A stretch of 10,000 nt of DNA, taken from assembly GCA_020216805.1 (NCBI GenBank), contig JAIWNN010000078.1, positions 1-10,000 of the forward strand, written 5' to 3'. The translations under genes were made by a program, and so were the position numbers. Origin of the DNA: Desulfarculus sp. GTDB lineage: Bacteria > Desulfobacterota > Desulfarculia > Desulfarculales > Desulfarculaceae. Shown piece after piece: positions 3,270 through 9,631 of this stretch. The notes beneath the pieces are model-generated. The model had not been told where the DNA came from. It saw only the letters and a list, made by a program, of their open reading frames with translations, and did not search any database. Numbering within the stretch: the stretch's first letter is position 1; every line of letters begins with the position of its first letter.

Positions 3270-3752
3270 ATGGGCCAGGAAGCCACATCGCTGGAGTTGG
3301 AGCTGGCGGAGGAGTCGGCCGCCCTGGCCCTGGGCCGGGCCCTGGGCCGGTCGCTCGAGGCCGGGGCGGTGGTGCTCCTGACCGGCGATTTGGGCGCGGG
3401 CAAAACCACCCTGACCCGGGGCCTGGCCGCCGGCCTGGGGGTGGACCCGGCCTATGTCATCGCCAGCCCCACCTTCACCCTGCTCAACATCTACCCCGGG
3501 CGGCTGGAGCTGTTTCACGCCGATCTCTACCGCCTGAGCCCGGCGGAGGCCGACGATCTGGAGCTCCTGGACCAGGCCGCGGTCGGAGTGCTGGCGGTGG
3601 AGTGGCCCGAACGGGCCGGCCAGCCCTGGCCGGAACAGGCGGTGCGGGTGGATCTGGCCCACCAGGGCCAGGGCCGGCGGGCCAGGATCAGTGGACCGGC
3701 GGCCATCGTTTCCCGCCTGGCGGCGGAGATGGCGGCCGAAGACAAAGGATGA
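3270..3752 (+). CDS. tsaE: tRNA threonylcarbamoyladenosine biosynthesis ATPase TsaE
   Basis: This 160-residue P-loop ATPase of the TsaE/YjeE family works with TsaB and TsaD to transfer threonylcarbamoyl to A37 of ANN-decoding tRNAs. Walker A is GDLGAGKTT (39-47). It is followed by the family signatures SPTFTL (66-71), HADLYRL (83-89) and VEWPER (110-115). The frame has no strong SD at either nearby ATG. I prefer ATG 3270 over ATG 3252 because the six extra codons include GTA, AAT and CCT, unlike the GC-ending codons of the gene, and because 3270 gives a family-like N terminus. A perfect 12-bp tandem duplication (3327-3350) encodes ALGRALGR. The stop is 3 bp before lysC, whose SD lies inside the last tsaE codons, so the two are probably translated as a coupled pair. 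Confidence 0.92.
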   Translation: MGQEATSLELELAEESAALALGRALGRSLEAGAVVLLTGDLGAGKTTLTRGLAAGLGVDPAYVIASPTFTLLNIYPGRLELFHADLYRLSPAEADDLELLDQAAVGVLAVEWPERAGQPWPEQAVRVDLAHQGQGRRARISGPAAIVSRLAAEMAAEDKG

Positions 3753-3755
3753 GCC

Positions 3756-5003
3756 ATGGCACTGATCGTCCAGAAATACGGCGGCACCAGCGTCGGCGAC
3801 ATCGAGCGGATCAAGAACGTGGCGGTCCGGGTCAAGCGCGGCCTGGACCAGGGCCACCGCATGGTGGTGGTGCTCTCGGCCATGGCCGGCGTCACCAACT
3901 CCCTGATCGCCCTGGCCCAGCAGATGAGCCCCGACCCCGATCCCCGCGAGCTGGACGTGCTCCTGACCACCGGCGAGCAGCAGTCGGTGGCGCTGTTTTG
4001 CATGGCCGCCCGCGATCTGGGCATCCCGGCCCGCTCGCTGCTGGGCTTCCAGGCCGCCATCCTCACCGACCGCGTCTTCGGCCGGGCCCGGATCAACTAT
4101 ATCGAGACCCGCCGCATCCTGGAGCTTCTGGACAAGGGCCGGCTGGTGGTGGTGGCCGGGTTCCAGGGCGTGGACGAGGACACCGGTGACATCACCACCC
4201 TGGGCCGGGGCGGCAGCGACACCACCGCCGTGGCCCTGGCCGCGGCCTTGCGTGCCGACGTCTGCGAGATCTACACCGACGTGGAGGGGGTTTTCACCAC
4301 CGACCCCAACGTGGAGCCCAAAGCTCGCAAGCTAAAGCAGGTCGCCTACGAGGAGATGCTGGAGATGGCCTCCCTGGGGGCCAAGGTTTTGGATATCCGC
4401 TCGGTGGCCCTGGCGGCCAAGTTCGGGGTCAAGGTCCACGTGCGCTCCACCTTCAGCGACCGGGAGGGAACCATGGTCGTGCCCGAGGCCCATATCGACG
4501 AGAAGCTGATGGTCAGCGGGGTGGCCTACACCAAGAACGAGGCCCGCATCAAGGTGCTGGACGTGCCCGATCAGCCCGGCGTGGCCAGCCGCCTGTTCGC
4601 CCCCATCAGCCAAGCCGGGATCGTGGTGGACGTCATCATCCAGAACACCAGCGCCGACGGCCATACCGATCTGACCTTCACCGTCCCGCGCACCGACTTC
4701 AAACGCGCCCTGGAGCTGGTCGGCCCGGTGGCGGCGGAGATCGGCGCCGGCCAGGTGGAGGGCGACACCAACATCGCCAAGGTCTCCATCATCGGCATCG
4801 GCATGCGCAACCACGCCGGGGTGGCGGCCAAGATGTTCAGCACCCTGGCCCGCGAAAACATCAACATCCAGACCATCAACACCAGCGAGATCAAGATCTC
4901 CTGCATCATCGACGAGAAGTACACCGAGCTGGCGGTGCGCGCCCTGCACGAGGCCTTCGGGCTGGCCGAGGAGGTGGAGCCCTCGCGGGAGGACCTGGCC
5001 TAG
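3756..5003 (+). CDS. lysC: Aspartate kinase, class II
   Basis: This 415-residue enzyme phosphorylates aspartate, the first step towards lysine, threonine, methionine and diaminopimelate. The kinase domain shows KYGGTS (7-12), VLSAMAGVTN (39-48), TTLGRGGSDTTA (147-158) and YTDVEGVFTTDP (173-184). Two ACT domains follow (about 265-335 and 342-405), with QNTSADGHTDLTFTV (296-310) and TSEIKIS (377-383), the regions that bind lysine or threonine for feedback inhibition in this family. The length is typical of class II (alpha/beta type) aspartokinases. The ATG has SD AAAGGA at 3744-3749 with a 6-nt spacer, and the gene is tightly linked to tsaE. An internal in-frame ATG with its own SD at 4473 may yield a separate regulatory beta subunit. 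Confidence 0.96.
   Translation: MALIVQKYGGTSVGDIERIKNVAVRVKRGLDQGHRMVVVLSAMAGVTNSLIALAQQMSPDPDPRELDVLLTTGEQQSVALFCMAARDLGIPARSLLGFQAAILTDRVFGRARINYIETRRILELLDKGRLVVVAGFQGVDEDTGDITTLGRGGSDTTAVALAAALRADVCEIYTDVEGVFTTDPNVEPKARKLKQVAYEEMLEMASLGAKVLDIRSVALAAKFGVKVHVRSTFSDREGTMVVPEAHIDEKLMVSGVAYTKNEARIKVLDVPDQPGVASRLFAPISQAGIVVDVIIQNTSADGHTDLTFTVPRTDFKRALELVGPVAAEIGAGQVEGDTNIAKVSIIGIGMRNHAGVAAKMFSTLARENINIQTINTSEIKISCIIDEKYTELAVRALHEAFGLAEEVEPSREDLA
4473..5003 (+). CDS. Possible internal-start beta subunit of aspartokinase
   Basis: Codon 240 of lysC is ATG and is preceded by GGGAGGG with a 4-nt spacer (4462-4472). Starting there would give a 176-residue protein made of the two ACT domains. Class II aspartokinases of Bacillus and Corynebacterium are alpha2beta2, with the beta chain made from an internal start near residue 250. 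The position agrees closely. The SD-like bases also encode a conserved REGT stretch, so they could be fixed by protein sequence rather than by translation needs. Confidence 0.4.
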   Translation: MVVPEAHIDEKLMVSGVAYTKNEARIKVLDVPDQPGVASRLFAPISQAGIVVDVIIQNTSADGHTDLTFTVPRTDFKRALELVGPVAAEIGAGQVEGDTNIAKVSIIGIGMRNHAGVAAKMFSTLARENINIQTINTSEIKISCIIDEKYTELAVRALHEAFGLAEEVEPSREDLA

Positions 5004-5036
5004 GGCCGGCGACGCCGTGAGGGGCGCGATTAGCTG

Positions 5037-5065
5037 GTGACAGGACCTCGCCGGCGTGATATAAA
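5037..5065 (+). promoter_or_regulatory. Sigma70-like promoter of the cimA leader
   Basis: GTGACA (5037-5042, five of six -35 bases) is separated by 17 bp from TATAAA (5060-5065, five of six -10 bases), inside the only AT-rich patch of this region. Predicted initiation near 5072 gives a leader of about 250 nt before cimA. An 8-bp inverted repeat (5005-5012 with 5048-5055) brackets the -35 box and could be an operator or a 3' hairpin of the lysC message. It lacks a T run, so it is not a clear terminator. Confidence 0.65.
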
Positions 5066-5138
5066 TAACTTAAAGTGGCGCCATGGCGGCGCCCCCGGGA
5101 AAAACCACCGCCGGGAGTCAAAGGGAGAAAAGCTCGAA

Positions 5139-5198
5139 TTGGCCCACGGCAGCGCCCCCATCGCCCTCGCCCTGATTATCGCCATCGCGCGAATTTGA
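5139..5198 (+). CDS. Isoleucine-rich leader peptide of cimA
   Basis: A 19-codon frame starting at TTG and ending in TGA encodes MAHGSAPIALALIIAIARI. Five of the 19 codons are isoleucine (ATC 5160, ATT 5175, ATC 5178, ATC 5184, ATT 5193) and two are leucine, clustered at the end, as in amino-acid attenuation leader peptides. AAGGGAG (5121-5127) is an SD with a rather long 11-nt spacer. The upstream in-frame stretch contains no ATG or GTG. It lies between a good promoter and a set of alternative RNA stems, directly before citramalate synthase, an isoleucine-pathway gene. The role is inferred from this arrangement. The TTG start and the long spacer are the weak points. Confidence 0.65.
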   Translation: MAHGSAPIALALIIAIARI

Positions 5199-5282
5199 AG
5201 CGCGGCCGGCGCACTTTTGTGCTCGCGTCGGTCGCCGCCTCCAGGGGACGGTGATGGGGGTTGTTGCGTTTTTTCCCTGGGG
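5185..5282 (+). promoter_or_regulatory. Transcription attenuator upstream of cimA
   Basis: Three competing pairings can be traced. Segments 1:2 pair 5185-5190 with 5200-5205 (core CGCGC/GCGCG) across the leader-peptide stop codon. Segments 2:3 form an 11-bp stem, 5202-5212 with 5225-5235, containing two G-U pairs. Segments 3:4 form a longer interrupted hairpin. In it 5224-5231 pairs with 5261-5268 (one mismatch, three G-U pairs), 5232-5237 with 5249-5254, and 5240-5242 with 5246-5248, ending directly at TTTTTT (5269-5274). Stalling at the isoleucine codons would block segment 1, free 2:3 and prevent the terminator. A further 8-bp pairing, 5239-5246 with 5275-5282, would also exclude the terminator. 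Folding was done by eye, and the 3:4 stem is the least certain. Confidence 0.58.
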
Positions 5283-5320
5283 ATGGTTGCCACGCGGGCG
5301 GAAGGAAAGGAGTTCCGCCC

Positions 5321-6913
5321 ATGTCTCCCCAGGCCCAGCCCACCCCGGTTGAGCTCTACGACACCACCCTGCGCGACGGCGCCCAGGCCGAGGGCCTGTC
5401 GCTCTCCGTGGAGGACAAGCTCAAGGTGGCCCGCCAACTGGACCGCCTGGGCGTCCACTACATCGAGGGCGGCTGGCCCGGCTCCAACCCCCGCGACCGC
5501 GAGTTCTTCGCCGCCGTGCCCGGGCTGGGGCTCAAGCAGGCCCAGGTGGTGGCCTTCGGCTCCACCCACCACGCCAACACCAGCGCCGAAAATGACGCCA
5601 ACCTGGCCGAACTGCTGAGCGCCCAGACCCAGACCGTCACCATCGTGGGCAAAAGCTGGCTGCGCCACGTCACCACCCAACTCGGCATCCCCCCCCAGCG
5701 CAACCTGGAGATGATCCGCGACTCGGTGGCCTTCCTGAAGGCCAGAGAGCGCCAGGTCTATTTCGACGCCGAGCACTTTTTTGACGGCATGAAGGAGGAC
5801 CCGGAGTACGCCCTGACCTGCCTGGCGGCGGCGGCCGAAGGCGGGGCCCGGGGCCTGGTCCTCTGCGACACCAACGGCGGTTCCCTGCCCTGGCAGGTGG
5901 CCGAGCGGGTGGCGGTGGTCAAGGAGCGCCATCCCGGGCTGGTGATCGGCATCCACTGCCACAACGACGGTGAGCTGGCGGTGGCCAACAGCCTGGCCGG
6001 GGTGGAGGCCGGGGTGCGCCAGGTGCAGGGCACCTTGTGCGGCTTCGGCGAGCGCTGCGGCAACGCCAACCTCTGCTCCATCATCCCCACCCTGCAGTTC
6101 AAGATGGGCTTTCACTGCCTGGACGAGGAGCGGATGAAGCTCCTGACCGAGACCGCCCGCCTGGTCTACGAGCTGGCCAACCTGCCGCCCCAGCGGTTCG
6201 CTCCCTACGTGGGCCAGAGCGCCTTCAGCCACAAGGGCGGTCTGCACATCAGCGCGGTGGAAAAGGACCCGGCCCTGTACGAGCACCTGCCCCCGGAGCT
6301 GGTGGGCAACCAGCGTCGCTACCTGGTCAGCGACCTGGCCGGCAAGGCGGCGATCCTGCAGCGCGCCCGCCAGTTCGGCTTGGAGCTTTCGCCCGAGGAC
6401 CCGGAGGTGCAGGCCATCCTGCAAGAGCTCAAGGCCCGCGAGGGCGAGGGCTATCAGTACGAGGGGGCCGAGGCCAGCTTCGAGCTTTTGATGAACCGGG
6501 CCATGGGCCACCGCCACCGCTACTTCGACCTGGTGGGCTTTCGGGTGATGGACTTCAAGGCCGCCGAGGGCGAGCTACCCCTGGCCGAGGCCACGGTCAG
6601 GGTGCGGGTGGGCGGCATGGAGGAGCACACCGCCGCCACCGGCCACGGCCCGGTCAACGCCCTGGACCGCGCCCTGCGCAAGGCTCTTTCGCGCTTCTTC
6701 CCCCGCCTGGCCGAGGTGCGTCTGGTGGACTACAAGGTCCGGGTCCTGGCCGGGGCCGACGGCACCGCCAGCCAGGTGCGGGTGCTGATCGAATCCAGCG
6801 ACGGCGTCAGCCGCTGGGGCACGGTGGGGGTCAGCTTCGACGTGTTGGAGGCCTCCTGGCAGGCCCTGGGCGACTCCATCCGCTACAAGCTGTTCAAGGA
6901 CAAGCAACTCTGA
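5321..6913 (+). CDS. cimA: (R)-citramalate synthase
   Basis: This 530-residue enzyme condenses pyruvate and acetyl-CoA to citramalate, opening a threonine-independent route to 2-oxobutyrate and isoleucine. The HMG-CoA-lyase-like TIM barrel shows YDTTLRDGAQ (13-22), the CimA-typical GGWPGSNPRD (50-59), AFGST (78-82), GIHCHNDGELAVANS (210-224) with the metal-binding HxH, and the AFSHKGGLHISAV block (301-313). The C-terminal LeuA-type regulatory domain is about 400-515, with VRVGGMEEHTAATGHGPVNA (429-448). Length and the GWPGSNP motif favour CimA over 2-isopropylmalate or homocitrate synthase. The frame extends to ATG 5261, but ATG 5321 has AAAGGAG with an 8-nt spacer and starts just before the conserved domain. 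It is preceded by its own promoter and a putative isoleucine attenuator. An eight-C run at 5689-5696 leaves the frame intact. Confidence 0.94.
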   Translation: MSPQAQPTPVELYDTTLRDGAQAEGLSLSVEDKLKVARQLDRLGVHYIEGGWPGSNPRDREFFAAVPGLGLKQAQVVAFGSTHHANTSAENDANLAELLSAQTQTVTIVGKSWLRHVTTQLGIPPQRNLEMIRDSVAFLKARERQVYFDAEHFFDGMKEDPEYALTCLAAAAEGGARGLVLCDTNGGSLPWQVAERVAVVKERHPGLVIGIHCHNDGELAVANSLAGVEAGVRQVQGTLCGFGERCGNANLCSIIPTLQFKMGFHCLDEERMKLLTETARLVYELANLPPQRFAPYVGQSAFSHKGGLHISAVEKDPALYEHLPPELVGNQRRYLVSDLAGKAAILQRARQFGLELSPEDPEVQAILQELKAREGEGYQYEGAEASFELLMNRAMGHRHRYFDLVGFRVMDFKAAEGELPLAEATVRVRVGGMEEHTAATGHGPVNALDRALRKALSRFFPRLAEVRLVDYKVRVLAGADGTASQVRVLIESSDGVSRWGTVGVSFDVLEASWQALGDSIRYKLFKDKQL

Positions 6914-9423: not shown

Positions 9424-9631
9424 CGCCTATACCATCAAGCCGCCTCAAGAATTAGAATCAGGCGGCACCCAACACTCGGGTCAGTCGTTGCGAGGAGCGA
9501 AGCGACGTGGCGATCTATTGAAAAAAAGCTAAAGAGAGTGCTTCGCTTCGCTCGCAATGACAAATTCAGGCTTTCTTGGTCAGGCCGGACGGACCGAGCC
9601 TTTCCGGTCTCATGGTTGATCGGTATAGGCG
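9424..9631. repeat. 208-bp composite inverted-repeat element (MITE-like candidate)
   Basis: CGCCTATACCATCAA (9424-9438) recurs as an inverted copy at 9616-9631 with a single extra base (TTGAT, C, then GGTATAGGCG). Between them lie a 7-bp perfect hairpin (GCCGCCT 9439-9445 with AGGCGGC 9460-9466), a GCGAAGCGA-type palindromic repeat (9484-9561) and a third stem (9568-9572/9597-9601 with 9578-9581/9592-9595). The segment is visibly less GC-rich than its surroundings and has no convincing coding frame. No target-site duplication is evident, so mobility is unproven. Confidence 0.5.
9484..9561. repeat. Dispersed palindromic repeat of the GCGAGGAGCGAAGCGA type
   Basis: The left arm GTCGTTGCGAGGAGCGAAGC and the right arm (complement GTCATTGCGAGCGAAGCGAA) form an imperfect hairpin. 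It has an 11-nt terminal match with one mismatch, a 3-nt insertion, then CGAAGCGA. A short AT-rich centre with a seven-A run lies between them. Sequences with this ATTGCGAGGAGCGAAGCGACG core are widespread as interspersed repeats in many bacterial genomes. The function of such repeats is unclear; they are probably non-autonomous elements. Confidence 0.75.

Follow-up and report, generated by a model that had tools for sequence, protein, structure and literature searches.

The window, by which we mean the whole stretch of 10,000 nt that was analysed, represents contig 14 of genome G000, which is 55% complete. It carries the gene of citramalate synthase (cimA), the enzyme through which the isoleucine pathway of many anaerobes is entered. 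The CimA protein of the window matches TIGR00977 (citramalate synthase) with 721 bits, the cut-off being 450. A gap of 317 nt separates cimA from the aspartate kinase gene ask, and fbp and tsaD come next after cimA. The features considered here are given with their window coordinates; G002 and G004 are two genomes of the same genus.

3756-5003: aspartate kinase gene (ask), the upstream neighbour of cimA
5037-5065, + strand: putative promoter boxes GTGACA (5037-5042) and TATAAA (5060-5065) with a 17-nt spacer, proposed from sequence and conservation
5073-5198, + strand: open frame matching the whole 35-codon frame of the relatives, with AAG (5073-5075) opposite their ATG
5124-5127, + strand: GGAG, a possible Shine-Dalgarno (SD) sequence of the TTG frame with 11-nt spacing, absent from G002 and G004
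5139-5198, + strand: Ile-rich leader frame MAHGSAPIALALIIAIARI, from TTG (5139-5141) over 19 codons to the stop TGA (5196-5198)
5148-5163, + strand: in-frame stretch able to pair with 5253-5268 (computed duplex)
5202-5235, + strand: post-stop hairpin (5202-5212 with 5225-5235), in whose 5' strand GGCCGGCGC is identical in G002 and G004
5231-5255, + strand: competing hairpin (5231-5237 with 5249-5255), computed and mutually exclusive with the hairpin 5202-5235
5269-5274, + strand: U6 (T6) tract before cimA, its position kept in the window, G002 and G004
5296-5320, + strand: hairpin with the cimA SD (5307-5312) in its loop (computed fold)
5321-6913, + strand: cimA, start ATG at 5321, with its match to the TIGR00977 profile

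The last hairpin of this list directly abuts the cimA start codon.

A sequence-only reading of this DNA had proposed a 19-codon frame from TTG to TGA with five Ile codons, four of them within the last seven codons, and re-reading the sequence gave exactly this frame (Ile at 5/19 codons in MAHGSAPIALALIIAIARI, 4 within the last 7). Its Ile content was compared with 3000 dinucleotide shuffles of 5004-5320. Frames with at least five Ile and at least 25% Ile were found in none of them, and the same holds for frames with four Ile in the last seven codons. A weaker criterion, three Ile in the last eight codons, is the level reached by the leaders of G002 and G004, and six of the 3000 shuffles attained it. 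In 23 loci of the family, which overlap in part and amount to 264,218 strand-bases, the window frame is the sole one that reaches either strict level, and seven frames reach the weak one. The Ile frame before cimA is not a chance product.

The same reading placed a promoter at 5037-5065. The boxes are present, and TGGTGACA and TATA occur at equal spacing in the window, G002 and G004. A strict promoter scanner, which requires T at the sixth position of the -10 box, listed no promoter in 4900-5400. The conserved boxes suggest that cimA would have a separate transcript, starting between ask and cimA.

At the corresponding place G002 and G004 carry the frames MSLRESHSAPGAASKPQPAQRASVAVSYISSLIRI and MSLRESHSALGAVVKPQPAQVVCAAASYISTLIRI, both of 35 codons with an ATG start and the ending YIS[S/T]LIRI*. 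Their leaders share with the window the -35 box and its spacing, the post-stop hairpin and the U6 tract before cimA. Upstream of the -35 box the two genomes are unrelated: the distance from the ask stop is 207 and 366 nt, respectively, and the best blastn-short match between these spacers is 9 nt long (E 0.22). The 271-nt leader itself is 91% identical. Of the 108 positions of the frame, 15 differ between the two genomes: 2 are first, 9 are second and 4 are third codon positions. They fall into 13 codons, of which 9 are changed nonsynonymously and 4 synonymously. None of the nonsynonymous changes falls into the final five codons LIRI-stop, and one of them is the S/T exchange at codon 31. The 84-85 nt from the stop to the end of T6 contain a single differing spot. 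Given this drift in the middle of the peptide, next to an unchanged LIRI-stop and post-stop RNA, it is not the peptide itself that is conserved, but its Ile end, the frame and the RNA.

As a separate observation, the G002 spacer between ask and the cimA leader holds a long inverted repeat, GGGCGGGGATAAACC... / ...GGTTTATCCCCGCC (L132, about 2510-2599), which by eye is missing from the G004 spacer. A sub-threshold match of this repeat to a plant microRNA is surely spurious.

The window is more distant from both relatives. BLAST at E 0.001 did not link its leader with that of G002. Shared by all three are TGGTGACA, TATA, CTRATT, CGAATTTRA, GGCCGGCGC and T6, in this alignment with gaps of 6 and 12 nt within the frame and a first half that aligns loosely. 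The window has five Ile codons and G002 and G004 have three, two of the window's codons being located in the 12-nt in-frame insertion. The score of the inner global alignment between the window and its relatives was equalled by 4 of 500 mononucleotide shuffles for G004 and by 1 of 500 for G002. Global alignment and place together point to homology of the window leader with those of G002 and G004. It had been suggested to align the regions upstream of cimA in related genomes and to look for a conserved short frame amid drifting bases; G002 and G004 do retain a short Ile-ended frame with its stop, the promoter and the post-stop RNA, while the middle drifts. Seen across these sequences, the frame, the putative promoter boxes, the stop, the post-stop hairpin and the U-tract are conserved in the two congeners, and the pattern indicates that the leader is real and selected.

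A competing explanation would take the Ile run as an accident of an AT-richer patch, with a frame starting at ATG 5083 as the real early frame, or with none translated at all. The window indeed has such a frame, which extends from ATG 5083 over 30 codons to a TGA overlapping 5175 and contains no Ile. Its ATG lies about 18 nt past the -10 box, and the loose alignment of the 5' half as well as the strong overall folding of the region (z -3.1) would also fit this explanation. It is nevertheless highly improbable in our view, as not one of the 3000 shuffles reaches the strict Ile levels and two further species have an Ile-ended frame with its stop at the homologous position.

The start of translation is less clear than the end. 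TTG 5139 with an SD had been proposed as start, and this part of the proposal is not borne out by the relatives: both start at an ATG, which in the alignment stands opposite AAG 5073-5075 of the window, and no comparable SD is found there. The window frame is open upstream of TTG 5139, which is the only in-frame ATG, GTG or TTG after the likely transcription start. The start codon is not conserved. TTG 5139 may be the start of the window leader, or else the start may have been lost. In G002 and G004 the leader ATG is found 7 nt downstream of TATACT. At 7 nt from the -10 box, the leader frame probably begins right at the 5' terminus of the RNA, and the frames of the two genomes are thus probably leaderless.

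RNA folding was computed both for the region behind the frame and for whole transcripts. The post-stop hairpin has 11 pairs in the window and 13 in G002 and G004, with z values of -2.9 in the window, -3.1 in G004 and -3.0 in G002. For the first set of computations, bases were masked from the stop onwards to represent the ribosome, and the RNA was folded from the stop to U6 only; 12 masked nt correspond to a ribosome on the stop codon. In G002 and G004 the post-stop hairpin stands at 0.99 with 0 to 6 nt masked, at 0.82 with 9 and at 0.01 with 12. At 12 masked nt the terminator base CGGC:GUUG right before U6 reaches 0.95. With 15 nt masked it amounts to 0.14-0.21, and the best structure has another stem near U6. 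A stem reaching U6 is computed for these two genomes in one state only. In this model, the fold of G002 and G004 would therefore flip from an antiterminator-like to a terminator-like form once a ribosome covers the stop.

This flip was not reproduced in the window, where the post-stop hairpin is dominant only at 6 masked nt and the hairpin 5231-5255, ending 13 nt before U6, dominates at the other masks. Whole transcripts folded with a 33-nt mask gave no clean switch in the window, G002 or G004. In the whole transcript of the window, pairing between the arm before U6 and the frame amounts to 0.62-0.83 with the ribosome stalled at any of Ile 2 to 5, and to 0.21 with a stall at Ile 1. A clear terminator/antiterminator switch in the window itself is not supported by the masked or the whole-transcript folds.

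The duplex between 5148-5163 and 5253-5268 is rarer in the window than expected by chance. It was equalled by 2 of 1000 shuffles of the frame and 8 of 1000 of the arm, and by 0 of 1000 when the arm was chosen afterwards as 16 nt. The corresponding pairing of the frame with the arm at the U-tract is matched in G002 and G004 by 232 and 343 of 1000 shuffles, respectively. As the arm pairing is strong in the window yet at chance level in the relatives, we do not take it as a conserved mechanism. For base pairing between the frame and the 5' strand of the post-stop hairpin, the evidence is weak (62, 59 and 872 of 1000).

The differences between the window and its relatives may be read as decay: the leader would have degenerated in the lineage of the window by a change from ATG to AAG, leaving a relic frame that is open by chance and whose Ile-rich end can still be read, and would still work in G002 and G004. 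The AAG opposite the ATG of the relatives agrees with this, and so do the sole remaining in-frame start after the likely transcription start, a TTG whose 11-nt SD spacing has no counterpart in the relatives, and the computed flip that the window does not reproduce. We consider decay unlikely all the same. Ile codons are more numerous in the window than in its relatives, five versus three, two of the five lying in an insertion that keeps the frame; promoter, stop, hairpin and U-tract are all retained; and an SD-like GGAG precedes the TTG.

The leader might also act on translation, in that a stalled ribosome would alter the folding at the cimA SD rather than at a terminator. An intrinsic terminator scanner found none on the + strand of 4900-5400, and the hairpin 5296-5320 of the window carries the cimA SD in its loop, with comparable short pairs possible in G002 and G004. 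This hairpin is, however, missing from the minimum-energy folds of the two relatives, and the position of U6 is constant in all three leaders. Control at the level of translation thus appears to us a rather improbable explanation.

We regard it as probable that the conserved element is an isoleucine-sensing leader peptide which attenuates transcription of cimA in one genus; the start of transcription, the translation of the frame, the termination and the response to Ile are what we infer from its arrangement. The first 200 nt of the transcript would comprise the Ile-ended frame, the post-stop hairpin with its strands B and C, and a region D just before U6 that competes with B for the 3' strand C. 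When charged Ile-tRNA is scarce, the ribosome would stall at the Ile codons and B:C could form. C would then be kept from the terminator, and RNA polymerase would continue into cimA. With ample Ile the ribosome would arrive at the stop codon and cover B, C would pair with D, and as the C:D stem would reach the U-tract, transcription would end before cimA. As in amino-acid leader attenuators, the frame is rich in the product, is located between a putative promoter and a gene of the pathway, and keeps its regulatory codons while the rest drifts. Most features therefore point to this class, with the start and the fold of the window as the weak points. The attenuation by Ile suggested in the sequence-only reading has gained from the orthologous Ile-ended leaders in G002 and G004; not supported are its TTG/SD start and, for the window's own RNA, a clear switch.

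The distribution of the leader was studied in 60 genomes, in which cimA loci were sought and found in the genus and the family. Four of six genomes of the genus (G000, G002, G004 and G003) hold the region upstream of cimA; the contigs of G005, whose CimA is 98% identical, and of G001 end inside cimA, and both were left out of the count. The leader is present in three of these four, and so is known from only three sequences. In the fourth, G003, cimA is located at another place, with no ask within 8 kb and no Ile-ended leader frame. In the other genera of the family, ask lies at most 129 nt upstream of the first aligned cimA base in all nine genomes that have DNA before cimA, and at most 35 nt in eight of them. 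Outside ask, no Ile-ended frame precedes cimA in these nine genomes. Five more family genomes have distant cimA matches only.

A wider survey listed the best 80 cimA loci, 79 of which have enough upstream DNA. A strict leader scan of these 79 gave no match. A looser one listed 15 frames, two of them ambiguous ones in Aneurinibacillus (L101, L125); the other 13 are C-termini of aspartate kinases, which are Ile-rich themselves. Among these 79 of the best 80 loci, no such cimA leader was thus found outside the genus, apart from G021 (see below). A pattern scan of viral contigs for the conserved leader end returned two loci, both without cimA. Rfam models, T-box included, gave no match at gathering score in the window, and just three sub-threshold, unrelated matches (E 0.41-1.8) in 4990-5340.

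The leader of G021 (L019, G021:C98), from the same class and another family, is a classical ILV leader, MNARTNINIIGIIPVVGVVVCLLLLVVLRNTQRSLVM, followed by a 15-bp terminator hairpin and a U-tract before cimA. Like that of the window, it contains Ile and directly precedes cimA. It differs in that by its composition it would sense Ile, Val and Leu and in that it stands at the head of a cluster in which cimA lies with a leuA-like gene and ilvB, and no sequence similarity to the window leader was seen.

Leaders were also found before ilvD. The search pattern asked for endings of the form (L/V)I(I/L/S/T)LP(L/R), or AILILLPR as in two of them, and leaders of this form occur in 16 genomes of the family; 17 of 20 were examined, and the one without is G006. 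They number 22 in total (loci G000:C159 (L153, L185), L174-L188 and L192) because all six genomes of the genus carry two in tandem. The window's own genome has both on its contig 159, ending at 3584 and 3866 (L153). All 22 leaders have their stop codon within a hairpin of 5 or more pairs. This hairpin is a near-invariant GCCCC/GGGGC, with an extension to CCCCGG-TAA-CCGGGG in G000 and G005. Directly behind the ilvD leaders neither an ordinary terminator nor a U-tract was found, and the ilvD loci tested had no Rfam match. A search for a downstream stretch that would pair with the post-stop GGGGCC gave a duplex better than 95% of 200 shuffles in just 3 of 22 leaders, so a three-strand switch is not supported for them.

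Both kinds of leaders of the family consist of a short frame that ends in codons of the pathway, with a hairpin at the stop. The ilvD leaders are set apart by the LP(L/R)-stop ending, the stop within the hairpin and the missing U-tract directly behind it. The ILV leaders of ilvD are better conserved than the cimA leaders. That Ile without Val marks the end of the cimA leaders, and Ile, Leu and Val that of the ilvD leaders, is as expected from the places of the enzymes in the pathway. More tentatively, the BCAA pathway of the family might be under leaders of divided specificity, an Ile-only one at cimA, newly placed in one genus where it separates cimA from ask, and ILV leaders at ilvD, the latter perhaps acting by an undescribed attenuation, e.g., via Rho or release at the stop codon. 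We consider this possible, though less likely than not.

Well-known ribosome-mediated attenuators of this kind are the leaders of ilvGMEDA and ilvBN in E. coli. The window resembles them in the short frame of regulated codons between promoter and gene, the competing hairpins and the U-tract; it deviates in its target cimA, in regulatory codons that are few and for Ile alone, and in a terminator that is weak by the scanner. In Actinobacteria, candidate leader peptides upstream of ilvB are described in PMC1262725, according to which codon changes upstream of the Streptomyces ilvB were without effect. In the window, for comparison, codons of the frame are able to base-pair with the arm that precedes U6. 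Compared with the actinobacterial leaders, phylum, gene and sequence are different.

In the literature searched, no leader peptide was reported for cimA or citramalate, nor in the present bacterial group. While the type of switch is well known, cimA as its target and the bacterial group seem new for it. If the proposed attenuation is true, this would be, as far as the literature searched shows, the first description of cimA under the control of a leader peptide, and such control would have arisen within one genus, while in its sister genera cimA still follows ask directly. The three leaders, with a single post-stop spot changed between two and much in the third, would then represent a small natural experiment on the origin and drift of an attenuator.

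Apart from the leader, the window contains at 9487-9561 an imperfect palindrome that starts with gttgcgaggagcgaagcga and ends with cttcgctcgcaatgac. Its left end is found at four sites in the incomplete G000 genome with at most two mismatches (control pattern: 0). The palindrome is an intergenic repeat.
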